This document shows, in pieces, positions 1,330-16,634 of a DNA stretch of 35,674 bases. The notes below the pieces were generated by a model. That model saw only the letters and a list, made by a program, of their open reading frames with translations. It was not told where the DNA came from and did not search any database. The DNA comes from Comamonadaceae bacterium (lineage in GTDB: Bacteria; Pseudomonadota; Gammaproteobacteria; Burkholderiales; Burkholderiaceae_C). The stretch lies in the NCBI GenBank assembly GCA_947464995.1, contig CANHZG010000005.1:1-35674 (forward strand). The letters run 5' to 3'. Position numbers and translations under genes: made by a program. Positions within the stretch are counted from its first letter, which is position 1; each line of letters begins with the position of its first letter.

Positions 1330-2337
1330 ATGCTTGCTACCTTGAATGTCACCTTCCCCTTCTTCGCCCTGGTGCTGTGCGGCTACCTGGCGGCGCGCCG
1401 GGGGCTACTGCCGCTGGCAGCCATCCCGGGCATGAACAGCTTTGTGCTGTTTTTTGCGTTGCCGTGCATGCTGTACCGCTTTGGCGCCAGCACGCCGATT
1501 GCGCAGTTGCTCGACCCTAGCGTGGCGATGAGCTACCTGTTTTGCGCGCTGGTGATGGTGGCGCTGGTGGTCAGCGTGACGCGGCGCGGGCGCATTGGCT
1601 GGAACGACGCCGCCTTTGGCGCCCTGGTCGGGGCCTTTCCCAATACGGGCTTCATGGGTGTGCCGCTGTTGGTCGCGCTGTTGGGGCCGCAGGCGGCAGG
1701 TCCGGCCATCGTGACGATTTTGGTCGACATGGTGATCACCACCTCGCTGTGCATTGGGCTGTCGCGCCTGGGGCCCGCCGTAGCAGACGCGGCCCAACCG
1801 GAAATGGACGTAGTGCAAACGTCGGCCGCCCAAGCCGCCAAAAACGCGCTCAAGGGTGTGGCCGCCAACCCCATGCCCTGGGCGATTTTGTCGGGCGCGC
1901 TGGTGTCGGCTTACCAGCTGCACTTACCCGCGCCCGTGGCGGCGACGGTGGGGCTGCTGGCCGACTCAGCCTCGCCGGTGGCGCTATTCACCATCGGCGC
2001 GGTGCTGGCGCGCTCCAATATGCTGGCCGCCAGCGGCCACGCTCCGGCAGTGCGCTGGTCCGAGGTGCTGCCGGTGGCGGGAATCAAGCTGTTCGTCCAT
2101 CCGCTGTGGGTTTTGGCGGTGGGCCACACGGTGCGGGCCCTGGGCGTGCCCTTGGACTCCTTTGCCCTCACCGTGATGGTCTTGGTGGCTGCCCTGCCCA
2201 GCGCCAGCAATGTGTCCATGCTGGCCGAGCGCTTTGGCGCGGACAACGGGCGCATTGCGCGCATTATTTTGGTGTCCACTGCGGTGGCGTTTTTGAGCTT
2301 TTCTGGCGCTGTGGCCTGGATGGCAGCGCCTAGATAG
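1330..2337 (+). CDS. AEC (auxin efflux carrier) family transporter
   Basis: 335 aa multi-TM ORF MLATLNVTFPFFALVLCGYLAARRGLLPLAAIPGMNSFVLFFALPCMLYRFGAS...; typical AEC N-terminus and GAFPNTGFMGVPLL motif. Confidence 0.9.
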   Translation: MLATLNVTFPFFALVLCGYLAARRGLLPLAAIPGMNSFVLFFALPCMLYRFGASTPIAQLLDPSVAMSYLFCALVMVALVVSVTRRGRIGWNDAAFGALVGAFPNTGFMGVPLLVALLGPQAAGPAIVTILVDMVITTSLCIGLSRLGPAVADAAQPEMDVVQTSAAQAAKNALKGVAANPMPWAILSGALVSAYQLHLPAPVAATVGLLADSASPVALFTIGAVLARSNMLAASGHAPAVRWSEVLPVAGIKLFVHPLWVLAVGHTVRALGVPLDSFALTVMVLVAALPSASNVSMLAERFGADNGRIARIILVSTAVAFLSFSGAVAWMAAPR

Positions 2338-4486
2338 CCAGGGGGTCTACATCAATCGCCCAGCGGATCAGGCCTTTGCCTGCGGGCTCGCTACGGGTCG
2401 CTTGCAACACGCTTTGCCAAGCCGCCAAAAAGCGCTGCAAGGCCGCGCGCGACGGGCTTTCCACCAGCATTTGGGCGCGTTCGATGTTGGCCACGCGCTG
2501 GACCGCCATCGGCACTGCGGCGTACAAGCTGACCTGCGCCAGGGTCTCGGCCCAGCCTTCCCACTGCGCCATGTCGGCGCTCGCGTTGGCGCTGGCGGCG
2601 TTTAAAAAGGCCTGTGCGGCTTCTTGGCTGCGCGCTTCGGCCCGCACCAGCGCCTGAAAGCTAAATGGCGGCATGGCGGCTTGCGCGCGTTCAACCAATT
2701 GGCTTTGTGCAAAGGCGGGGTAGTCGTAGTTTTTCAGTGCCGCGTAAAGCGGGTGCGGGGGCTGGAAAGTTTGGATCCAGACCTCGCTGTGCTGGCCCAG
2801 ACGTGCGTCGCGCCCAGCGCGTCCGGCGGCTTGCATTAGCAGGCTGAATAGGCGCTCGGGTGCACGAAAGTCGCTGGAAAACAGGGCGCCGTCGGGGTTG
2901 ACGGCCGCCACCAGGGTGATGCGGCGAAAGTCGTGCCCTTTGGCGATCATTTGCGTGCCCACCAGCACGTCCACATCGCCGGCATGCACCGCTGCCAATT
3001 GGGTTTGCAGCGTGCCTTTGAGGCGCGTGGTGTCGGCGTCGATGCGGGCCAACCGAATCGGCTCGCCCAGCGGGAATTCGGCGCACACGGTTCCGGGGCG
3101 GCGCACGTCCGAGAGTAAGTCCGCCAACACCTCTTCGATTTGCTCGGTGCCCCGGCCAATCGCCGCAATATCCGGGTTGCCACAGTCCGGGCAGGCGCGC
3201 GCCACCCGATCGGTAAAGCCACAGTGGTGGCAGCGCAAGCTGCGGTCAATTTTGTGGAACACGCGGTAGGCGCTGCAGTGCGGGCACGCACTCTTCCAGC
3301 CACAGTCTGCGCAGTGCAGCACCGGAGCGTAGCCGCGGCGGTTCAAAAACACCATGCACTGCTCGCCGCGCAACACCCGCTCCTTGATGGCTTGGAGCAG
3401 CGGGAGCGAAAAAATGGCGTTGCGGGCCTGGTGGTTCATGTCCACGCGGCGCACCAAGGGCAAGTCTTGCGCAACGCTGCCAATGCGGCTGGGCATGTGC
3501 AGGCGCAGGTAGCGACCGCCCTGCTCAGCGGCTCGGCTGAGGTACCAGCTCTCCAGCGAGGGCGTGGCCGACCCGAGCACGACTTTGGCCTGCTCAAGCT
3601 TGCCTCGGTAAATGGCCAAATCGCGCGCCGAATAGCGCGCGCCCTCACCACTTTTGTAGCTGGGGTCGTGTTCTTCGTCGACGACGATGAGCGCAAGGCG
3701 GGGAATTGAGGCAAACACCGCCATGCGCGTGCCCAACACGATGCGGGCGCGGCCCTCGTGTGCGGCCAGCCAGGCACCAAGGCGCTGTGGGTTGGTCATG
3801 CCGCTGTGCAGGCTGACCAGCGCCTGCGCGCCAAACAGGGGGCCAAATCGCTCTTGAAAACGCGCCTCTAGCTGGGGTGTGAGGTTGATTTCGGGGACCA
3901 TGACCAAGGCCTGCGCCGTCGGGTCCCGCTCCAGCAGTGCTTGCACGGACTGCAAATAGACCTCGGTTTTGCCGCTGCCCGTGGCACCAAACAGCAAAAA
4001 TGGACCAGCCTGCTCCTGAATCTGCGCCACAGCGTGCGTTTGTTCAGGCGTGAGCATGGGCTCGCTGGCGTTTGGGCGCTTGTCCGGTGGACCGGCTTTT
4101 TCGGCTGACCGTGCCGCACGCGCCAGACGCCGTTGCATTTGCAGTGGCGAGAGCTCGCGCAACTGGGGTGGTAGCGCCGCCAAGGCTACTTCTCCGAGCG
4201 AGCGTTGGTAATACTGCGCTGCAAAGCGCACCAGTTGTTGCCAATGCGGGCTCAACGGCGCGACGGTGTCAATCACGCCGGCCACGTCGCGCAGTTTGCC
4301 GACGTCCAACTCGCCCGTGGCCTCGTCCGAGTCTTTGTGCCACACCACGCCCAGGGTTTCGCGTGCGCCCAGTGGCACGCGCACCAAGGTACCCGGCGCA
4401 AGTGGCGACGGGTGGCGGTAAGTCAGCACCGAGCCCAGCACGGAATGCGCGGGGGTGTGCACGAGAACGCTTAGCCAGGTGGTCAT
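2330..4486 (-). CDS. priA: Primosomal protein N' (replication restart helicase PriA)
   Basis: Helicase motifs GATGSGKTEVYLQ, VVDEEHDPSYKSGEGARYSARD, GSATPSLESWYLS, zinc-binding CADCGWKSACPHC / CHHCGFTDRVARACPDCG. Start set at MTTWLSVLV (4486); the ORF track extends to 4606. Tail-to-tail 8-bp overlap with the AEC gene. Confidence 0.95.
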   Translation of the reverse strand: MTTWLSVLVHTPAHSVLGSVLTYRHPSPLAPGTLVRVPLGARETLGVVWHKDSDEATGELDVGKLRDVAGVIDTVAPLSPHWQQLVRFAAQYYQRSLGEVALAALPPQLRELSPLQMQRRLARAARSAEKAGPPDKRPNASEPMLTPEQTHAVAQIQEQAGPFLLFGATGSGKTEVYLQSVQALLERDPTAQALVMVPEINLTPQLEARFQERFGPLFGAQALVSLHSGMTNPQRLGAWLAAHEGRARIVLGTRMAVFASIPRLALIVVDEEHDPSYKSGEGARYSARDLAIYRGKLEQAKVVLGSATPSLESWYLSRAAEQGGRYLRLHMPSRIGSVAQDLPLVRRVDMNHQARNAIFSLPLLQAIKERVLRGEQCMVFLNRRGYAPVLHCADCGWKSACPHCSAYRVFHKIDRSLRCHHCGFTDRVARACPDCGNPDIAAIGRGTEQIEEVLADLLSDVRRPGTVCAEFPLGEPIRLARIDADTTRLKGTLQTQLAAVHAGDVDVLVGTQMIAKGHDFRRITLVAAVNPDGALFSSDFRAPERLFSLLMQAAGRAGRDARLGQHSEVWIQTFQPPHPLYAALKNYDYPAFAQSQLVERAQAAMPPFSFQALVRAEARSQEAAQAFLNAASANASADMAQWEGWAETLAQVSLYAAVPMAVQRVANIERAQMLVESPSRAALQRFLAAWQSVLQATRSEPAGKGLIRWAIDVDPLAI

Positions 4487-4649
4487 GGAGCCTTTATTGT
4501 CGGTGTACGGGGTCGCTGGCGATCCCACAGCGCTGGCGTCGTAGATGTTCGAAGCGAAAAGGCCTTTATTGGCGGCGGATGTAGATATCCTGCGATAAAT
4601 AAGCACGCTAAGTCATTGATCTGTAATGAACCCCAGGATTGCCCCCAGA

Positions 4650-4673
4650 TTCTGTGGATAACTTTGTTGATAT
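4650..4673 (+). repeat. 24-bp direct repeat copy 1 (ttctgtggataactttgttgatat)
   Basis: Identical to 5063-5086; contains TGTGGATAA (reverse complement TTATCCACA, perfect DnaA box). Confidence 0.9.
4653..4661 (-). promoter_or_regulatory. DnaA box candidate TTATCCACA
   Basis: Exact match to TTATNCACA on the minus strand. Confidence 0.6.
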
Positions 4674-4838
4674 GGCTGCACAGCAGGTCGGCTCCAGTGG
4701 CAATGCGGGGCTTAAATAGGGTTGCTCAGAAATTAAGCAATTTAAAAATCCATTAAAAATCAATAACTTGCATACGCTCTCGGATTTATAGCAGCATAGG
4801 GACGCGCTGCAGGCCGCCGCCCAATGGCCTGTCAAAAA

Positions 4839-4847
4839 TGTGCATAA
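4839..4847 (-). promoter_or_regulatory. DnaA box candidate TTATGCACA
   Basis: Plus-strand TGTGCATAA; exact match to TTATNCACA on the minus strand. Confidence 0.5.
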
Positions 4848-5062
4848 GTTCAGTCGCCTCGCGCTCGCAATGTCCTCGATTAGCTTATAGAGACGGCGTC
4901 TTTGGAATCAAAAAGCATGCCGGGTCCAGCAATAAACTCGTCGGCATATTCCCTAGTGCCGAACCAACAGTATGGCAATCCATTGGGACGGTATGGTGAT
5001 GAAGAATATCTGAATGCCGCGTAAGTGATTGATTCGTATAGTGGGCTTGCCTTAGCCGGTTT

Positions 5063-5086
5063 TTCTGTGGATAACTTTGTTGATAT
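5063..5086 (+). repeat. 24-bp direct repeat copy 2 (ttctgtggataactttgttgatat)
   Basis: Identical to 4650-4673, start-to-start distance 413 bp. Confidence 0.9.
5066..5074 (-). promoter_or_regulatory. DnaA box candidate TTATCCACA
   Basis: Exact match to TTATNCACA on the minus strand. Confidence 0.6.
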
Positions 5087-5101
5087 CTGCCGTCAGGGCA
5101 T

Positions 5102-5127
5102 AAAAAAGCCCCAAGAATCAAGGCTTT
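5102..5127 (-). terminator. Possible intrinsic terminator downstream of hemE
   Basis: Minus strand reads AAAGCC-TTGATTCTTGG-GGCTTT followed by TTT; 6-bp stem plus U-tract, about 190 bp past the hemE stop. Confidence 0.35.
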
Positions 5128-5316
5128 CGCCAGCATGCCTTGAAATGATGCAAAATCAAATTTCTATATAAATCAATGGCTTACAGGGGCTTGTGCCCTT
5201 AGGCGCAGTCCTTGCTGCGAATGTTGTTGCTTTTCTTAATTGATTCAATTTTTGTGCACAAGTCAGCAATCGGCTTTGGAAAACGCCCGTCCCTATGCTA
5301 GGAAACCGAGCGCGTT

Positions 5317-6480
5317 TCAGGCCCGCTGGGCGCGCGAGTGGCTGTGAACCGCCTCGACCAATGCCGCCACATGTTCCGGGGGCGTGTGCTGGCTGATACC
5401 GTGGCCGAGATTAAAAATATGCGTGGGTCCTACGCCGTGGCCCTTGTGCGGGGCCCCAAAACTGTCGAGAACTTGCGCAACTTCGGTCGCTATCTGTGCC
5501 GGGGGGGCAAACAGTACGTTGGGGTCGATATTGCCTTGCAGGGCTTTGCCCGGACCGTTGGCAACACCGCCCACTGCAGCACGCGCTGCGCGCAAGTTCA
5601 CCGTCCAATCCAAGCCGAGTACATCGCAGTCAAGACTGCCCATCTCTTGCAGCCAGGGCCCGCCGCCCTTGGTAAACACAATGCGCGCAATGGCTTGCCC
5701 TTGAGGACCTTGGCGTTTGAGTTGGGCCAACACGCGCGCTGTGTAGGCAAGGCTGAAGGTCTGGAATGCTCCATCGGCAAGCACGCCCCCCCAGCTATCA
5801 AACACCATAACGGCTTGCGCACCTGCGTCAATCTGTGCGTTGAGGTAAGCCGCCACTGCATCGGCGTTGACTGCCAATATGCGGTGCATAAGGTCCGGGC
5901 GGGAATACAGCATGGTTTTAACCAGCCGGTAGTCGTCGGAACCGGCACCTTCGACCATGTAGCACGCCAATGTCCAGGGGCTGCCAGAAAAACCGATCAG
6001 AGGTACGCGGCTCTTTCCGTCGGACTGCGTGAGGGCCTTGCGGATGGAGCGGACTGCATCAAAGACGTAGCGCAGCTTCTCCATATCGGGCACTTCGAGC
6101 TGATTCACAGCTGCTTCGTCACGTACCGGGTTGGCAAAACGTGGACCCTCGCCAAGTGCAAAACTCAGTCCCAAGCCCATGGCGTCGGGAACGGTCAAGA
6201 TATCGCTGAACAAAATGGCAGCGTCCAAGGGGTAGCGCTCCAGGGGCTGTAGCGTGACTTCGGTGGCGTAGTCACGGTTGGTGGCCAAACCCATGAAGCT
6301 GCCTGCCTTGGTGCGTGTTGCGCGGTACTCGGGCAGGTAGCGACCGGCTTGGCGCATCAACCACAAAGGGGTGTAAGGCGTGGCGTGTCGCAAACAGGCA
6401 CGCATAAACGTGTCGTTCTGCAGTCCTGAAAACGCAGCCGCTAAAGCGTCGGTGGTGTGCAGGGGGTAGGTCGTTGTCAT
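5317..6480 (-). CDS. hemE: Uroporphyrinogen decarboxylase
   Basis: [56 protein letters not shown]...[15 protein letters not shown]...[16 protein letters not shown]; UroD signature motifs. The ORF track offers an upstream start at 6507. Confidence 0.96.
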
Positions 6481-7348
6481 GGGTTGCTTTACCTTGGCCG
6501 ATGGCACTTGTGGTTGGGGTTTAAGTGTAAGCGTGGCTTACCCTTAGCCACTTGATAAGCAGTTTGAAAATGGACTGGTGATACTTTCTACACTATGTAC
6601 AGGGCCATTTTGGCAGTGCCACTCAACGCCCACAGGGGAAAACAGTGCTTGTAAATGGGAGGTAGTGCTGCACTTCGAGTTCTTGGTGAGCACCGGGGCG
6701 AGTCGACCGCAAAAGCTGTTGCTCTCGAGTCTGCGTGCGCCATCATTTAGGCTCAGCGGGCAGGTGCATTTGCGCAACTTAGCCCCCGAAATTGACTGTT
6801 CCTTACTGTACCGCCCATGCACAGACGGGTCGTCTACCGCCAATTGCTGACTAAAGTGCAAAGCAGCCACCTCACGTACCCGGGAGGACACCAGGTTTCA
6901 AGCTGCTCCCGCCGGAATTTGTTGACAGGCACGTTGCACGCTTTGGCACCCCAACGGCGGTGCTTACAGAAACGGCCAATGCGGGAGGTCGAACCGAAGC
7001 ACGCAAGCACCGCCGCGGTGATCGCTTGTCACACACAGCCCGTGTGCGACGGACTTCACAGGTGCCTGATGGATGAAGCTATCAGCTACACCGGGTCATG
7101 CAGGGCAATTCACTCATCCGAATAATTTTATTTAATTTGTTAATGATTACCAAAATTTACTGTAACATCTTCAACGAATAGCTTCAAAATTTTTTCCGAA
7201 AAGCACTAGAAATTCAATGATCGGCTATCGGACGGGTGTGACAAATTTTGATACTGCGATTCTCACCCCCCCAGCGTTGGAAAAATGCATGCATTGTGCA
7301 TGGCAGAAGGACCGTGGGTACGGGTCAACCAAAGGTAAACGGAGGTCA

Positions 7349-7753
7349 ATGATGGAGCACACAGTTGAATATTTAGGACGCATTTTGGTAGTGGATGACA
7401 GCAATACCATTCGGCGTAGTGCGGAGTTTTTTCTAAAACAGGGCGGTCACAACGTCTTTCTGGCCGAGGATGGAATCGACGCGCTTAGCAAGGTCTATGA
7501 ACACCAGCCGGACCTGATCTTTTGCGATATTTCCATGCCGCGGCTCGATGGATATCAGACCTGCGCAATCATCAAAAGCAACTCCCGCTTCGCATCGGTT
7601 CCGGTGGTCATGCTTTCATCCAAAGATGGCGTAGTCGATCGGGCGCGCGGACGCATCGTTGGAGCACAAGATTACCTCACCAAGCCGTTTACAAAAACCC
7701 AAATATTGCATGCGGTGCAACAGTATGGCGTACCTTTTCAAGGGGTTGCGTAA
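7349..7753 (+). CDS. pilG: Twitching-motility response regulator, PilG-like (CheY fold)
   Basis: MMEHTVEYLGRILVVDDSNTIRRSAEFFLKQGGHNVFLAEDGIDALSKVYEHQPDLIFCDISMPRLDGYQTC...VMLSSKDGVVDRARGRIVGAQDYLTKPF; SD ggaggt just upstream; first gene of a pil-chp cluster. ORF track start 7217 judged too long. Confidence 0.9.
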   Translation: MMEHTVEYLGRILVVDDSNTIRRSAEFFLKQGGHNVFLAEDGIDALSKVYEHQPDLIFCDISMPRLDGYQTCAIIKSNSRFASVPVVMLSSKDGVVDRARGRIVGAQDYLTKPFTKTQILHAVQQYGVPFQGVA

Positions 7754-8124
7754 TGGCAATAAAAACGGTGTTGGTGGTCGACGATTCAAAGACTGAAACG
7801 ATGTACTTAACGGAAATCCTGATCAACAGCGGATACGTCGTATGTAGCGCGGAAAACGCTGAGGAGGCCTTTGCCTCATTGGAATCAGAACACCCCGACC
7901 TCATACTGATGGATGTAGTGTTACCCGGAAAAAATGGATTTCAGCTCACCCGCGCGGTTTCTCGGACGCCCGAATACGCCCATATTCCGATCATCATTTG
8001 CAGCAGCAAATCCTTAGAAACTGATCGAATCTGGGGCATTCGCCAAGGAGCCTTGGACTATCTAACCAAACCGGTCAGCCCTGCGCTACTGCTCGCGCGA
8101 ATCAAGTCTTTGGACGGTGGTTAG
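7753..8124 (+). CDS. pilH: Response regulator, PilH-like
   Basis: MAIKTVLVVDDSKTETMYLTEILINSGYVVCSAENAEEAFASLESEHPDLILMDVVLPGKNGFQLTR...YLTKPV; start overlaps the pilG stop (TAATG). Confidence 0.9.
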   Translation: MAIKTVLVVDDSKTETMYLTEILINSGYVVCSAENAEEAFASLESEHPDLILMDVVLPGKNGFQLTRAVSRTPEYAHIPIIICSSKSLETDRIWGIRQGALDYLTKPVSPALLLARIKSLDGG

Positions 8125-8127
8125 CGC

Positions 8128-8655
8128 ATGGGACAAAGGACCGTTATTCGGGAATTGCAGGACCGGTTAGCAAATCGTTTGCAGTTGGTCCAAGAAAAAG
8201 GCGGCGTGGCCGATTGGTTGGCTGTACGGTCAGCCGGGAAGCACTATTTGTTTTCACTTAGACAAGCCGGCGAAATACTTCCAGTATTCAACCTGCAACC
8301 GGTTCCATTCACAAAGCCCTGGTTTTTGGGCGTGCTCACCATTCGTGGTGGGTTGTTAGGGGTCATTGAGTTTGGCCAATTCACGCTCAGCGCTGTACCG
8401 GCTCCCTCTTGGCGTGAAGAGAGCAGCATGGCCATTTCGATGAATGAACAATTGGAAGTGAATTGCGCTTTGCAGGTAGACGAGGTGTTGGGGTTGAAGG
8501 GTAGTGGGGCGTTTGTTGCATCGAAACCCTCTGCGTCAGGAGCACCTCCCTACTATTCACATTGCTATGAGGACAACACGGGACTTGTATGGCAATCGTG
8601 TGATTTGCAAATACTTGCGCGGAACCCCGAGTTTTTGGATATCAGCGTTTGCTAA
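8128..8655 (+). CDS. pilI: CheW-like chemotaxis adaptor, PilI-like
   Basis: [19 protein letters not shown]...[44 protein letters not shown]; CheW-domain pattern between pilH and pilJ. Confidence 0.87.
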
Positions 8656-8666
8656 AAGGTAAGTAC

Positions 8667-10928
8667 ATGTCGACAGACCCATCAATCTTGGACCAATCTG
8701 CAGAAGAGAAGTTTCATCAGGGCCATTCCTTAGATGGATTTGCGTGGCCAGAACCTGCAGGAGGTGGCCCCAAACCATCGTTTGCGAAGGAAAAGTCCGC
8801 AAAGCTTGATAGCGCTAATTCATTTCCATGGGACACATCCTCCCTGATCTCTCTGCCATTATTGGGGTGGCGAACGCTCGGGCAACACCAATCCATTCTG
8901 GGCGGGATTTTTGGTGCAGCGCTGATTGCACTTGGGGTCCTCATTTACATGACTTTGAGCCAGTCGGACGCGACTACCCACTATTTGAAAGCCACTGGGC
9001 AGTCGTTGCTGCAGTCCGAGCGCTTGGCAAAAGCCGCAACGCAGGCTTTAACAGGCAATGAAAGCGCGTTTGCAGATTTAGCCAGTAGCACGGAACTACT
9101 GGTAAAGGCCATTAACGTACTGCACTCCGGGGAGCCGGTTGTCCAAGTGCAACCGTTGGGGCCAGAATATCAAACCGTAGTCGAAAAACTGGCCTCGCTT
9201 GCTGAGCGATCAGAAGCCAATGCCAACACCATTGGGGCGCAGCAGAAAACCCTTATGCAGATGGGCGCAGCCTTACTTCTGGTAAATCGCAGGTCTGAAG
9301 AGTTGCTTGACCTGACGAAAAATATCTCTGCGCTTAAGCAGCAGCAATCGGCGTCACCCGCAGAAATATCAGCCATCGGCGAGTTGTCTACCCTAACTCA
9401 ACGCATCGGAAAGTCCTCCAATGAGTTCATGACCACGATGGGCGTCAGCGCAGAAGCGGTATTCTTGTTGGGAAAAGACCTCAATTCGTTTCGTGACATC
9501 GCGGCTGGACTCCTTGACGGTAGCTCCGAGTTGCGCATCAATCCAACAAGAGACAAAGGGACGCGCGATCAACTCTTGACGCTAATTGAAATGTACGAGG
9601 AGACGCGGACGCAGGCCAGTGCGTTGTTAGACAACCTGCAAGGTCTCGCAGCCGCACGTGAAGCGCAAAAGTCGCTTGTGGCAGACAGTCAGTACATAAG
9701 GGACCAACTCGAAGGGCTCCAGTCCGGGTTGTCCGAGAGTGCAAAAGTGAATTCCGCAATATGGTTAGCACGAATATTGACCGCTTCGCTAGCGATCCTC
9801 GCTGCTGCTGGTATGGTTTACGTTCAGCTGAAGGACAGTCGAATTCGTCAAATCGCCGCTGAAACCAGACACAAAAGCGCCGAGGAACTGCGCGCCGAAG
9901 CTCAGCGAAAGGAGCGTGACCTCCAGCGCATGAACGACGCCAATCAGACAGCCATTTTGCGACTCATGAATGAGTTGCAGAGCGTAGCGGAAGGTGATTT
10001 GACGCAGGAAGCCACAGTCAGCGAAGACATTACAGGAGCCATCGCCGATTCAGTGAACTACACAGTCGAAGAGTTGCGAACCTTGGTACTCAATGTCCAA
10101 GGAACCGTTGATCGAGTAGTAAAGACCACTTCAAACGTGGACGCTGCGTCTGCCGCGCTCTTGATCAAGTCGAATCAGCAACTCGTAGAGATTCGTAGCA
10201 CCGGGCAGTCCGTGGTGGAGATGGCCAGCCGAATCAACGAAGTTTCCGATCGGGCACAGGAGTCCGCCGTTGTCGCAAGGCAATCGCTGCAAGCGGCTCA
10301 AACGGGACTCAGTGCGGTGCAAAACACCATCGATGGCATGAATGTCTTGCGCGACCACATTCAGGAAACCTCCAAACGCATCAAACGACTTGGCGAGTCA
10401 TCGCAAGAAGTTGGTGAAATAACTGAGTTGATCTCCGACATTACGGAGCAGACCAACGTTTTAGCGCTCAACGCAGCGATACAAGCGGCGTCAGCGGGGG
10501 AGGCTGGGCGGGGATTTTCTGTGGTGGCCGAAGAAGTTCAGCGGCTTGCCGAGCGATCAGCTGCTGCGACCCAACAAATCGCAAACTTGGTTAAAGCAAT
10601 TCAGACCGATACCAACAATGCGATGAGCGCGATGGAGCGATCTGCGCAGGGTGTGGTGGAGGGAGGAAAGCTGTCGGACGCCGCAGGTACTGCATTGTCT
10701 GAAATTGACAGGGTTTCCCGTAGCATGGCCGATCGCATCGACCAGATATCTAGGGCAGCTTCTACCGAGGCGGCACTGGCGGACTCCGTTGCTCAGAACA
10801 TTCAAAAAATCTTCTTGGTGACGGAACAGACCGGTGAAGGAACCCGCGCAACCGCTGGTCAGGTACGCGAACTCTCCCGTATGGCGCAGGAACTCCGCAA
10901 TTCTGTTTCACGTTTCAAGATTGCCTAG
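8667..10928 (+). CDS. pilJ: Methyl-accepting chemotaxis protein, PilJ-like
   Basis: TM segment, PilJ-type periplasmic region, second TM ([19 protein letters not shown]), MCP hairpin [55 protein letters not shown]. Start set at MSTDPS. Confidence 0.92.
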
Positions 10929-10970
10929 TAGGCACTTGTAACTGCATGGGTGGATTGGGAAACAGTGACC

Positions 10971-13900
10971 ATGGATCAATACATTCTGGGAACCGAGGCC
11001 AGCCCCTTTTCCATCGACAGGAGTCCATTGGCATGGGTTCTCGAAGATTTAAAGAAATCTCTTAAATTCGCCACAGCAGTCGTCTGCCGCTTTGCTTGGG
11101 AGGTGAAAAGTTCGATTGGAAATAATGCGCTAGAGATGGATACTAGTCCGCTGTCCCAGGTCCAGCGGCAACTCCAGCAAGGGGCAGCAGCACTGGACAT
11201 GGTAGGTCAACAGGTTCCGGCCGTGATGTTGCGCGCGGTTGAGTCATTGTCACGAAAATTCATTCAGTCGCCCAAGTCCTGCACTGAAGATGCTGCGCAT
11301 TGCATAGATCGATCCTGCCTCGCCGTCGTCGACTATTTGGAGGGAATTCTCAAGGGACGGACCTTGTCTCCCGTTGCACTTTTCCCCCAACACCGCGCCG
11401 TCTTGGTGCGCATCGGAGCTGAACGGATTCATCCGGCAGATCTCTGGAGTGCACTCTGGCATTGGCGCGACATTGCGTTACCTAGAGGGCTGCTAGGTGA
11501 ACAATATAGTTCGGAAATACGCGTCCGCATGAGCGAGTCGCTTTTGACACTTCTCCATTCTGGTGACCATGGTGCTGCCCGCGAGATGACTGAGTATTGC
11601 GCCGCTTTGGCGGCTGGAAGAGACGTTCGGGAACAGACCACGCTATGGGCGCTGGCCGCGGGTTTCTTTGAAGCGATTTCTTTAGACTTGGTGCCGAAAG
11701 ATATATACGTTAAGCGAGCGGCCTCAAACGTCTTGCAGCAATTTGGAGTGCTTCGCCAAGGTACCATTCGACCGTCCGAACGTGTTGCGCAGGACCTCAC
11801 CTTTTTTTGCGCAATGGCGCAGCCTTCGACTCAACAGTCTGCGCCGCATTTAAGGGCGGTCCGCGAAGCTTACGGTTTGGAACACACACCGGTTTCCGAC
11901 TATGAAATTGAGAAGTTAGGTCGATTAGACGCCGACCAACTTGACCGAGTTCTTCGCAAAATTGCCGCCGCCAGCGAAGCTTGGTCTGCCTTCGCTAATG
12001 GGGAAACCCACCGCGCTGGTTCTCTTGCCGACCTGTTTTCCGAAGTTGGAACCGCCGTCCTGAAGGTGCACTCTGAGCACACTGCGTTCGTAAGTGCGCT
12101 CAGTGATGCCGTCGAGCTTGCGATTCACGAAATCGCCCCGCTGAGGGCGGCGCTGGCGATGGAGGTAGCAACTGCCATCTTGTATTTGGAGGCGGCCTAT
12201 ACGCATATGGATGCCGACGCAGCAACCTATCAGCGTAGCGCTCAGTTGGCCGCCCGCTTGCACCATGTCTGCGCCGCAAACGACTCCTATCCGATAGAGG
12301 ATTGGATGGAGGAGTTGTACCGCCGCGCCAGCGATCAACAAACTATGGGCAGCGTCACGCGCGAACTACGTATTTCACTCGTTGAAGTTGAAAAAGCTTT
12401 GGACCAATTCTTTCGCAGTGGACGGGCAAATGCCGTGTTGCATGCCGCCCCCGCTCATCTGGCGCAGATGCGTGGCGTATTTATGGTGCTAGGGCTCGAG
12501 CAGGCTGCGCTCGCTGCAGTGCGAATGCGATCAAGCATTGAGAAGTACCTTCTGGACAGCGTAGATGCTGCCATCCATCCTTCTGCCCTATTCGATACAT
12601 TGGGGAACAGTCTGGGCGCCATGGGGTTCATGATCGACATGCTGAGCTACCAACTGCCCTTGGCCCGGCGCATGTTTGTTTACGACGAAGGCTTGGCGGA
12701 ATTCCGGTCCATTATTGAACGAGATCGGTCGGTGCGTACTCCGCCAATAACGCCAACTACCCTGTCACTTGACCGCGATCCGCCACCTCAATACCAGTCG
12801 ACTTTCGGTTCACTTAGCCCGTTTTTCGAAAATCTTGAGGACGTGATCTCTCCCGAAACCGAGCCAACACCAGTCCTGGGGGGTGGCGATGAAGGAAAAG
12901 ATCTGCTTGTCTCGGGAACGGGCGACGAAGATATACACCAAATTTTTTTGGACGAGTCCAAAGAGGTCATCTTGGTGGCCGCCTCTGCGGTTCAAGAACT
13001 TGCAGCGCAGACCGGAAACATTGGAGCGCAGGTTCGGCTGCGGAGGGCATTTCACACCATCAAGGGAAGTGCCCGCATGGTGGGCCTCCAAACGTTGGGA
13101 GAAGCAGCATGGGCGTTTGAGCGGTTGCTTAACGAGTGGTTGGCTGATGAGACGCCTTTCACTGGCGCAATGTTTGACCTGACGAGCAGCGCCGTCCGAG
13201 CCTTTGAAATGTGGGTTGATGACATTTCACACGGTAGGGATGGACCTTGGACGGCTGATCCCTTTAGAGACAGCGCAGATGCCTTTAGGACATCGGGCGA
13301 GTACAGACCTTTGCGCTTGCCCGATTACGCGGTGCAGGGCACCGACGACGGTAGGTGCTATCAGACCTTGGCAAGCGGTACGACACAATTGTCAGAGCAA
13401 TCTGAACAGCAGCCAATTTTTGACGTTGTCAACTTTTCCACGGATCAAGTGACGCGGGGTCTGTTTGAACAAGCAGCGGTGTCAATACCTGTGTTGACTG
13501 CATTACCGTCGACCGATGGCGTGCCAATTGGCAGTCCGAATAAGCTGGGAGCGCGCACCGGAAATCCCCCGCCAGAGGTTAGCGATACCGCTGAAGCCGA
13601 CCTATCACCGCCAGTGTCCCCAGCACCAATGAAAGTCATAGGGCATTTGCGATTGAGTCCAGCTTTCTTTGCTGTTTACAGCACCGAGGCAGATGAATGG
13701 TCTTCCCGCTTGATTGCTGAGATCGAGCAATGGGTGCATGACCCGGAGGCTCGCTCGACAGAAGCCGCCATGGTTTTGGCCCACTCTTTACAGGGGGCGT
13801 CAGCGACTGTAGGGTTTGATGCCTTAGCCGAGCTTGCACGGATGTTGGAGCAAGCGCTTGAACATGTCGGGTCTCATCCGAAGAAAGTCGGCGAATGGGC

Positions 13901-16634
13901 CATCGCCTTATTGGCATGTGCACGGCACATTGGTGACTTGCTTGCAGATTTTACGAATGGAAATTTACCAAAACTTGACGAGGCGCTCATGGTGGAGCTC
14001 AAGCGAATCGTCGAACCAAACGGATGGGCATCCCGCTCGGATCCATTAGAAGTTGCTTTAGGCGCACTACAGGACTCGATCAAGAATGAACTCAGTGTCA
14101 CTCCAACAGCCCCTGGACCGGGACTTAGCGGCCAACGGAAGAGTTCTGTTATCGCCGCTACAGGCGATCGCGAAAATGATGATTTGAATATTTCCGTCAT
14201 TGAATCTTCCGCCGTCGCACACGCCTACGCCCCTTCCCAAGCGACGCAAACTTTAGAGGGCTATGTCCAAACACAGTCCATACCGCAACACGACCTAGAG
14301 AGCGAGGACGCGATCGATGCAGAGTTGCTGCCCATATTCCGAGAAGAGGGACATGAATTGTTTCTGGCTCTGGGTCGTTCGCTTCGGGTATGGGTATCGA
14401 ACCCGCAATTAGAAAGTGCGCGCTCACAGTCGTTACGCGTTCTCCACACCATCAAGGGTAGCGCGCGTCTTGCGGGCGCGCTGCGTTTGGGGGAGTTGGC
14501 ACACCGATTGGAGTCTCAGATTGCCGACGCCAAGGCAGAGCGCGCGACCCCGTCGTACATCGATTCATCGATCCATGTTTTTGACCAGCTACGCGGCATT
14601 TTTGATGCATTGGGTCCAATCAATATTGGGGCAAAACCGGATGAAATACCGGCCATCTCGCCGGTCGCCGCGCCAAACCGACCGGATGTGCAACAGGGTG
14701 CGACTGGCGAAGCTGTTTCGCACAGGCTGCTGGGGCATTCGATACGGGTTCGATCGAAAATTTTGGACCGCCTGCTGGACCAAACCGGCGAGGTCATGAT
14801 GGGTCGATCCCGACTGGATGCCAACGTAGCTCAAACGCACAACGGACTGACAGACCTGGGAAACACTTTGAAGCGGATGCGCCACCAGTTGCGCGAATTG
14901 GAGCTTCAGGCTGATCTGCAAATGCAAACACGCCAAACCCAAACCCAAACCCGAGGTTCCGCGCAATTTTTCGATCCTTTGGAATTTGACCGCTTCACGC
15001 GTGTTCAAGAGCTCAGTCGATTGTTGGCAGAGTCTGTTGAAGACGTGGCCACGGTGCAGCGCAATTTACAGATTTGCGTGCAAGGCGCTCAAGACGATGT
15101 GGGCGCCCAGGGTCGACGCGTGAAGGAGCTTCAGCACGATTTGCTGCGCATGCGGTTGGTCGAGTTTGAAAGTATCGCAGACCGCCTCTACGCAGTGGTC
15201 CGTCAGGCGTGTAAGGCAACCGGAAAGCAGGTGCGCCTCGATATTTCGGCCGGTACCATTCAGCTTGACCGCGGCGTATTGGATCGGATCACCCCGGCAC
15301 TCGAGCATATTTTGCGTAACGCGGTTGGACACGGCATCGAACCGGTCGATGTGCGTCTAGCAGCTGGTAAGTCGGCCACTGGGTGCATTACCATCGTCGT
15401 GGTCCAAGATGGCGGCGATGTTGCCGTCACCATCAGCGATGACGGTCGTGGTTTAGACATCGACTTAATCCGGGTTTCTGCACAGGCAAAAAATCTTTGG
15501 GATGGGGAGGCGGACTTCGGCGTACAGGATGCAGTGCGGGTGCTATTTCTCCCTGGGTTCACCACGGCGCAACGGGTTACTGAAATGGAAGGTCGGGGCA
15601 TTGGCATGGACGTCGTACTTTCGGACGTAAATGCCCTTGGTGGGCGCATCGATACCAAAACGACAGTGGGCGTCGGCACTAGTTTTGAGTTGATTCTGCC
15701 ATTGACCACAGCGGTAACTCAAGTTGTACTGTTGCGCATGGGCGCGTTTACGATGGGCGTGCCCTCAAAGTTGATGGAAACTGTATTGCGTGTTCCATCG
15801 GACATGCTCGATCGTGCTTATGAAGATGGTTTCTTGGTGGAGGGCGGTCAGGCTGTAACGTTGTATTGGGGAGGGTCTTTGCTTCAGGTGTCAGACCGTA
15901 GTCTGGAGCGATCAAACAAGCAAAATTCAGTAGCTATCTTTCGCAGCGCGGGCCGACGCGTTGCCTTGCATATCGACGAAGTATTGGGTAATCGCGAGGT
16001 CGTTGTCAAAAACCTAGGCCCCCAGTTAAGCCGCCTACCTGGAATGGCGGGAATGACGGCTATGGCAACCGGTGCCGTGGTGTTCATATACAACCCCGTA
16101 GCTTTGGCCACCGTGTATGCCGACCCCGATCGCCAGGTTCTAGCTTCTGGGAAGCTCAGGGTCCCGAGCGCAGTATTGGGGGGTGGCACTTCAGCGGGGG
16201 CTTTGACCGGCGGCATTCAACGTCATGCTGGTCTAGTGACCGAAATGGATCAACTCGCGCCTTTGGTGTTGGTAGTGGACGACTCCATTACGGTGCGCCG
16301 TGTGGCGCATCGTCTGCTAAGGCGCGAAGGGTTTCGCGTTGCCATGGCCAATGATGGGTTACAGGCCCTGGAGCAATTGCAATTGGAGCGCCCGATGGTG
16401 GTGTTGACGGACATCGAGATGCCGCGCATGGATGGTTTTGAGCTCACCCGAAGCATTCGCGCCGACGCGGGGCTGGCGGGCTTGCCCATCGTCATGATTA
16501 CGTCCCGCATAGCGCAAAAACACCGTGACCACGCAGCCAGTCTTGGTGTAAACCATTACATGGGGAAACCCTACTCGGAACTGGATTTGATGGCCTTGGT
16601 GCGCAGCTATTGCTCCCAAACGGTGCCCGTTTGA
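10971..16634 (+). CDS. chpA: Hybrid histidine kinase/response regulator ChpA (PilL) with several Hpt domains, HATPase, CheW and C-terminal receiver
   Basis: Hpt-like LRRAFHTIKGSARMVGL, MVLAHSLQGASATVGF, LRVLHTIKGSARLAG; HATPase LEHILRNAVGHGIEP...DDGRGLD...GRGIGMDVV; CheW-like region; receiver LVLVVDDSITVRRVAHRLL...LTDIEMPRMDGFEL...MGKPYSE. ORF track uses GTG at 10950; ATG at 10971 preferred. Confidence 0.93.
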   Translation: MDQYILGTEASPFSIDRSPLAWVLEDLKKSLKFATAVVCRFAWEVKSSIGNNALEMDTSPLSQVQRQLQQGAAALDMVGQQVPAVMLRAVESLSRKFIQSPKSCTEDAAHCIDRSCLAVVDYLEGILKGRTLSPVALFPQHRAVLVRIGAERIHPADLWSALWHWRDIALPRGLLGEQYSSEIRVRMSESLLTLLHSGDHGAAREMTEYCAALAAGRDVREQTTLWALAAGFFEAISLDLVPKDIYVKRAASNVLQQFGVLRQGTIRPSERVAQDLTFFCAMAQPSTQQSAPHLRAVREAYGLEHTPVSDYEIEKLGRLDADQLDRVLRKIAAASEAWSAFANGETHRAGSLADLFSEVGTAVLKVHSEHTAFVSALSDAVELAIHEIAPLRAALAMEVATAILYLEAAYTHMDADAATYQRSAQLAARLHHVCAANDSYPIEDWMEELYRRASDQQTMGSVTRELRISLVEVEKALDQFFRSGRANAVLHAAPAHLAQMRGVFMVLGLEQAALAAVRMRSSIEKYLLDSVDAAIHPSALFDTLGNSLGAMGFMIDMLSYQLPLARRMFVYDEGLAEFRSIIERDRSVRTPPITPTTLSLDRDPPPQYQSTFGSLSPFFENLEDVISPETEPTPVLGGGDEGKDLLVSGTGDEDIHQIFLDESKEVILVAASAVQELAAQTGNIGAQVRLRRAFHTIKGSARMVGLQTLGEAAWAFERLLNEWLADETPFTGAMFDLTSSAVRAFEMWVDDISHGRDGPWTADPFRDSADAFRTSGEYRPLRLPDYAVQGTDDGRCYQTLASGTTQLSEQSEQQPIFDVVNFSTDQVTRGLFEQAAVSIPVLTALPSTDGVPIGSPNKLGARTGNPPPEVSDTAEADLSPPVSPAPMKVIGHLRLSPAFFAVYSTEADEWSSRLIAEIEQWVHDPEARSTEAAMVLAHSLQGASATVGFDALAELARMLEQALEHVGSHPKKVGEWAIALLACARHIGDLLADFTNGNLPKLDEALMVELKRIVEPNGWASRSDPLEVALGALQDSIKNELSVTPTAPGPGLSGQRKSSVIAATGDRENDDLNISVIESSAVAHAYAPSQATQTLEGYVQTQSIPQHDLESEDAIDAELLPIFREEGHELFLALGRSLRVWVSNPQLESARSQSLRVLHTIKGSARLAGALRLGELAHRLESQIADAKAERATPSYIDSSIHVFDQLRGIFDALGPINIGAKPDEIPAISPVAAPNRPDVQQGATGEAVSHRLLGHSIRVRSKILDRLLDQTGEVMMGRSRLDANVAQTHNGLTDLGNTLKRMRHQLRELELQADLQMQTRQTQTQTRGSAQFFDPLEFDRFTRVQELSRLLAESVEDVATVQRNLQICVQGAQDDVGAQGRRVKELQHDLLRMRLVEFESIADRLYAVVRQACKATGKQVRLDISAGTIQLDRGVLDRITPALEHILRNAVGHGIEPVDVRLAAGKSATGCITIVVVQDGGDVAVTISDDGRGLDIDLIRVSAQAKNLWDGEADFGVQDAVRVLFLPGFTTAQRVTEMEGRGIGMDVVLSDVNALGGRIDTKTTVGVGTSFELILPLTTAVTQVVLLRMGAFTMGVPSKLMETVLRVPSDMLDRAYEDGFLVEGGQAVTLYWGGSLLQVSDRSLERSNKQNSVAIFRSAGRRVALHIDEVLGNREVVVKNLGPQLSRLPGMAGMTAMATGAVVFIYNPVALATVYADPDRQVLASGKLRVPSAVLGGGTSAGALTGGIQRHAGLVTEMDQLAPLVLVVDDSITVRRVAHRLLRREGFRVAMANDGLQALEQLQLERPMVVLTDIEMPRMDGFELTRSIRADAGLAGLPIVMITSRIAQKHRDHAASLGVNHYMGKPYSELDLMALVRSYCSQTVPV
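14935..14952 (+). repeat. (AAACCC)3 hexanucleotide repeat within chpA
   Basis: gcc-aaaccc-aaaccc-aaaccc-gagg; encodes QTQTQT, in frame. Confidence 0.85.

Follow-up and report, generated by a model that had tools for sequence, protein, structure and literature searches.

Two tandem DnaA box–IHF elements between hemE and priA of a Comamonadaceae bacterium, a probable non-origin DnaA-control locus

Is the cluster of DnaA boxes between hemE and priA in a Comamonadaceae bacterium an origin of replication, a site that controls DnaA from elsewhere on the chromosome, or regulatory DNA for the gene that follows it? The question is posed by a stretch of 35,674 nucleotides (‘the window’), in which an earlier note had seen three exact TTATNCACA matches and a fourth, palindromic near-match, and had suggested an oriC-like or relict origin, a secondary DnaA-binding or titrating locus, or control of priA. 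Detailed knowledge of how DnaA is controlled by datA and DARS comes mainly from Escherichia coli. We describe here the layout of the gap, its conservation among relatives, and its likeness to the E. coli sites. On sequence comparison, the gap probably holds, twice in tandem, a locus of the datA/DARS type that controls DnaA away from the origin.

The extent of the gap depends on where priA begins. The most likely start, judged from the sequence and from a 718-amino-acid match to relatives, is the ATG at 4486, which we prefer over the GTG at 4606; with this start, the hemE–priA gap is 4487–5316. The three exact boxes lie in it where the earlier note had placed them, all on the minus strand (Table 1), and TTGTGCACA is found, as described, at 5252–5261. 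The idea that the latter is a separate palindromic site had to be given up: its spacing, and the occurrence of the same sequence at 187–189 bp in relatives (L063, L064, L065, L071 and L073), identify it instead as the degenerate first box of unit A. Two of the three exact boxes do sit in copies of one exact 24-bp repeat, and this repeat belongs to a larger tandem duplication that takes in a whole unit of ~240 bp, the paired boxes being 187 bp apart in one copy (5253/5066) and 186 bp apart in the other (4839/4653). An AT-rich tract remarked upon earlier, 4728–4770, includes the predicted IHF site of unit B (4758–4770). Dinucleotide shuffles of the whole window gave a mean of 0.35 exact boxes, and at least three in 2 of 100 shuffles. 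The assembly (2.74 Mb) contains 31 exact boxes altogether, and three so close together occur nowhere else in it; these genome-wide counts, with the comparative counts given below, rule out chance clustering. Elsewhere in the same assembly (G000:C147:2280-2336), two exact DnaA boxes occur on the same strand, 48 bp apart. Part of the locus is also spanned by a 15-bp inverted repeat (4793–4807 and 5285–5299 of the window), whose arms are 93% complementary and 477 bp apart.

Table 1. Positions of the two units, their sites and the flanking genes, in window coordinates
Feature	Position	Strand	Remarks
hemE (uroporphyrinogen decarboxylase), upstream neighbour	5317..6507	-	Pfam PF01208, E 5e-126
Whole locus, two tandem G-IHF-III/C copies	4602..5275	-	both units aligned with relatives
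Unit A, G box, degenerate, TTGTGCACA	5253..5261	-	187 bp from C box
Unit A, predicted IHF site TAAGCCATTGATT (exact YAANNNNTTGATW)	5171..5183	-	G +78 bp, C -109 bp
Unit A, weak DnaA box III ATATCAACA	5078..5086	-	C box -12 bp; conserved in Comamonadaceae
Unit A, C box TTATCCACA	5066..5074	-	exact match
Unit A, second, opposite IHF-type site AATCAATCACTTA (hemE-strand reading)	5022..5034	+	C box start +40 bp
Unit B, G box TTATGCACA	4839..4847	-	exact match; 186 bp from own C box
Unit B, predicted IHF site CAAGTTATTGATT (exact YAANNNNTTGATW)	4758..4770	-	G +77 bp, C -109 bp
Unit B, weak DnaA box III ATATCAACA	4665..4673	-	C box -12 bp
Unit B, C box TTATCCACA	4653..4661	-	exact match
Unit B, downstream IHF-type site GATCAATGACTTA (hemE-strand reading; one mismatch)	4609..4621	+	C box start +40 bp; aligned with unit A site
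priA (primosomal protein N'), downstream neighbour	2330..4486	-	Pfam PriA domains

Each copy is an ordered element: a DnaA box, G (TTATGCACA), followed by an IHF site and then by another box, C (TTATCCACA). Both boxes are read on the hemE strand, mostly 186–189 bp apart and sometimes 197–199 bp. Between them lies a conserved TAAGTNNTTGATT, in agreement with TAAnnnnTTGATW, the IHF consensus given in PMC8682772. The C box is preceded at 12 bp by a weak box on the same strand (box III) and followed at 14 bp, in many species and families, by an inverted box (box I). Box III is a good DnaA box in groups other than Comamonadaceae. Box I has three to four mismatches in both units of the window, and a mean of 3.5 in Comamonadaceae. 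The C box is nearly invariant in relatives, the search having selected for TTAT[CT]CACA, and the second IHF-type site, downstream of it, is present in the Comamonadaceae column consensus too. Tandem copies like those of the window occur in 15 of the 65 Comamonadaceae measured, for example in Acidovorax (L089 and L093). In these and other tandem arrays, one unit often has a spacing of 198 bp and the other of 188 bp, about one helical turn apart.

The two arms of the element vary in different ways. Of 85 Comamonadaceae units, 84 have the IHF site 109–111 bp from the C box; of 50 units from the other Burkholderiales genomes sampled, 46 have it at 107–111 bp. These figures are partly selected, given that the score by which units were picked mildly favoured 106–111 bp. 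The same score favoured no value for the distance from G to IHF, and this falls into separate classes: 67–69 bp (4 units), 77–80 bp (71) and 87–88 bp (10) in the 85 Comamonadaceae units, and 66–71 or 76–82 bp in the other 50. These clusters, at ~68, 78 and 88 bp, are steps of about one helical turn (~10 bp). A bent complex that is specific for one face of the helix predicts just such steps, confined to one arm.

Comparison of the priA–hemE gap across Comamonadaceae, which the earlier note had proposed, shows the arrangement of boxes to be conserved. Among 80 named hemE loci, most of them from this family, the first 1.2 kb downstream of hemE (93 kb when added up) contain 178 exact boxes, versus 4 in the remaining 1.15 Mb. 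A same-strand pair follows hemE in 46 of 80 loci from genomes sampled across the order (22 Burkholderiales families); many Burkholderiales among these 80 whose hemE–priA gap is short or split do not have the element there. In several genomes in which hemE and priA have separated, the boxes stay upstream of priA (L310, L313, L315, L321 and L322). Beyond the order, the strict pattern of G box, IHF site and second box occurs in 68 of 369 sampled Gammaproteobacteria genomes, and the reversed pattern, used as a control, in none of the 369; the order Burkholderiales and the class Gammaproteobacteria are meant here in the GTDB sense, were inferred for the samples from named relatives, and have their lineages given as family numbers. 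Among 150 genomes sampled from the phylum, the pattern turned up in additional members of the class and, outside the class, in two families (f261 and f264); in the remaining genomes of this sample it was not found. As a sequence pattern, then, the element is found across beta- and gamma-proteobacteria. Outside Burkholderiales it is sometimes close to priA (L324, L325, L330, L332 and L333), and elsewhere adjoins genes for shikimate dehydrogenase, malic enzyme, a HemN-like protein, DctM or an M48 peptidase, and with such varied neighbours it behaves as an autonomous locus. In the open-access literature we found no report of this element in beta-proteobacteria, where an earlier description in subscription journals is possible, and nothing relevant on datA or DARS in beta-proteobacteria or on DnaA boxes upstream of priA.

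An origin of replication, whether chromosomal, secondary or relict, would account for the DnaA boxes, the AT-rich tract and the IHF sites, and has a precedent in Caulobacter crescentus, whose origin, Cori, adjoins hemE. The likeness to Cori consists of this neighbour and of the DnaA boxes; the difference is that the boxes here come after hemE and, in a complete relative, stand well away from the skew minimum. The assembly to which the window belongs is in 279 contigs, so we sampled GC skew, in 20-kb pieces, in a complete genome of the same genus (G007, 3.89 Mb). Cumulative skew reaches its minimum there at ~600–653 kb, adjoining dnaA at 653 kb, and the hemE–priA boxes, at 125,136 and 125,323, lie 529 kb from dnaA, inside a replichore of steady negative skew rather than at the minimum. 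In the window itself, no switch of skew was found at the gap. The distance from dnaA to the element is 0.53–0.54 Mb in G001, G007 and G034, and ranges from 23 kb to 1.5 Mb in other genomes, and the recurrence of the element near unrelated genes throughout the class fits a control site instead. The skew of the complete relative rules out oriC, and lends no support to an oriC-like region or a relict origin; we regard an origin of any kind at this place as exceedingly improbable. One 20-kb piece of the complete relative (L155, G007:C1:1-20000) stands out by its G+C content of 0.316 in a chromosome of ~60% G+C, with a GC skew of -0.16, and looks like a foreign island.

That the gap is instead an operator, through which DnaA and IHF couple transcription of priA to the DnaA cycle, is improbable, but has more in its favour within Burkholderiales than outside. 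Where hemE has moved away in Burkholderiales, several genomes keep the boxes upstream of priA, and in this order the C box commonly stands at a distance of 80–140 bp from the priA start. Set against this, the latter distance ranges from 29 to 805 bp while the internal distances of the element are constant to 1–2 bp, and no sigma-70-like promoter was found between 4300 and 5500 of the window. Nor was the element found in the rpmE–priA gap of E. coli, and this, together with the varied neighbours in other orders, weakens a simple priA operator. The suggestion of regulatory DNA for priA can thus be kept as a possible role in priA expression in Burkholderiales; as the general function of the element it falls, because in other orders other genes adjoin it. 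What these comparisons support is the remaining suggestion, a secondary DnaA-binding or titrating locus, whose box architecture is conserved across the order and recurs across the class.

Among E. coli sites, datA is the one that the arms of the element resemble. It comprises box 2 (TTATCCACA), an IHF site 65 bp on, and box 3 (TTATTCACA) a further 97 bp on, which all point the same way; at 12 bp beyond box 3 comes an inverted box. The element has the same succession of strong box, IHF site and box in a single orientation, and its distance from IHF to box III is likewise 97 bp; from the left-hand box to IHF it is 68 or 78 bp versus 65 bp in datA. In the window, two high-affinity boxes of the same orientation stand on either side of a predicted IHF site, as in datA, both being exact in unit B and the G box having one mismatch in unit A. 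The intervals are 77 or 78 bp, and then 97 bp (to box III) or 109 bp (to box C), versus 65 and 97 bp in datA, so that one arm is off by about one helical turn. The arms of datA are the shorter, and the likeness is one of layout rather than of alignable sequence. There are differences as well. Nothing corresponding to box II lies between box 3 and the inverted box of datA, whereas the right-hand core of the element has three boxes. Unlike datA, the element includes another IHF-type site, 40 bp further downstream, and the window has two copies of the element in tandem. Box 7, which is essential in datA and lies 12 bp before box 2, has no conserved counterpart before G in the element, where the weak box adjoins C, and datA is situated after tRNA-Gly genes. 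Both, on the other hand, occupy the origin side of the chromosome and come directly after a transcription unit that runs in the same direction (PMC5742627, PMC10950094). Of the 18 genomes in which our locus and dnaA could both be placed, 16 have the two no more than ~14% of the chromosome apart, and the other two have them 31% and 44% apart, by a hand count from listed coordinates that uses rounded genome sizes where there are several contigs and is uncorrected for shared ancestry and hemE–priA synteny; E. coli datA is at 10% (PMC5742627). Clusters of DnaA boxes away from the origin are said to repress untimely initiation in Bacillus subtilis and Streptomyces coelicolor also (cited in PMC5742627, PMC10950094); these belong to different phyla, and the likeness, going by their description, is that the DnaA boxes are not at an origin.

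The right-hand side of the element is more like DARS. In DARS1, TAATACACA is followed at 12 bp by TTATCCACA, and this at 14 bp by an inverted TTATCCACT; these offsets recur in the core of DARS2, which the deletion primers of PMC4585315 allowed us to locate, and in the core of the element (-12 on the same strand, 0, and +14 inverted). A site 99 bp upstream of the DARS2 core, in the same orientation, which we take to be IBS2, resembles the IHF site at 109 bp in the element; no match to the IHF consensus was found in the DARS1 region. An E. coli box at 965 of L306 had been a candidate for the DARS2 core, and was rejected on finding that the knockout primers of PMC4585315 place the core at 635–669. 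It belongs to a second three-box set (951/965/977) in the rppH–mutH region (NC_000913.3, L306:951-1082). The middle box of this set is 109 bp from an exact IHF consensus, a distance shared with the Burkholderiales element, and the set may be the outer boxes of DARS2.

Such likeness raises the alternative that the element reactivates DnaA as DARS does: DnaA molecules head-to-head on boxes I and II would shed ADP, helped by IHF ~109 bp away, and ATP-DnaA would rise. We think this unlikely for the locus. In its favour, beside the core offsets and the IHF site upstream of DARS2, is the quality of the flanking boxes in the class-wide set, in which the mean numbers of mismatches are 0.82 and 1.47, under a search pattern that required neither box. 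The three-box core found class-wide is not found in the window, where box I is degenerate in both units, and yet boxes I and II are described as crucial in E. coli (PMC4585315). Furthermore, the G-box arm is a feature of the element and not of DARS; DARS2 depends on Fis sites (FBS2-3), whose consensus is weak, and its outer boxes are different ones; and the origin-side position fits datA better.

Returning to the datA-like reading, the element would work as follows. DnaA would bind the strong G and C boxes, both pointing one way, and IHF would bend the DNA between them, so that the DnaA on both arms could meet in a loop, by analogy with datA (PMC5742627, PMC10950094). The weak box beside C and, in many species, the inverted box beyond it might recruit further DnaA. 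Most likely, the DnaA gathered in this manner would have its bound ATP hydrolysed, or be titrated, and active DnaA would fall; happening soon after the replication fork had duplicated this origin-side locus, this would prevent premature re-initiation. Genes for IHF alpha, IHF beta and Hda are present in the assembly. We infer binding and looping, and likewise the sign of the effect; as to the sign, we consider inactivation of DnaA, as at datA, to be about evenly balanced between right and wrong; reactivation seems unlikely, and titration only, a shade less likely again. Taken as a sequence pattern, the element appears to combine the arms of datA with the right-hand core of DARS. It is conceivable, and we put it forward only tentatively, that beta- and gamma-proteobacteria inherited in the G-IHF-III/II/I element an ancestral, composite switch for DnaA, in which, depending on how it is bound, either the G-IHF-III arms would inactivate ATP-DnaA or the I-II-III core would reactivate ADP-DnaA, E. 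coli datA and DARS2 being specialised descendants that split these roles.

One paper describes conservation of DARS2 only among gamma-proteobacteria related to E. coli (PMC4245941), and a review of the subject mentions beta-proteobacteria without detail (PMC5742627). An element defined by its geometry, and findable by pattern search across an order and, next to varied genes, across a class, provides a handle on once-per-cycle initiation in other proteobacteria, and allows ideas on how datA and DARS evolved to be tested. On a practical note, origin-finding software could mistake the locus for oriC. Also near hemE, at 7217–16634 of the window, are genes for a response regulator, CheW and a PilJ/MCP protein, and an open frame of 1894 amino acids, a chemotaxis-like cluster whose composition suggests a type IV pilus (Chp-like) signalling operon adjoining hemE.
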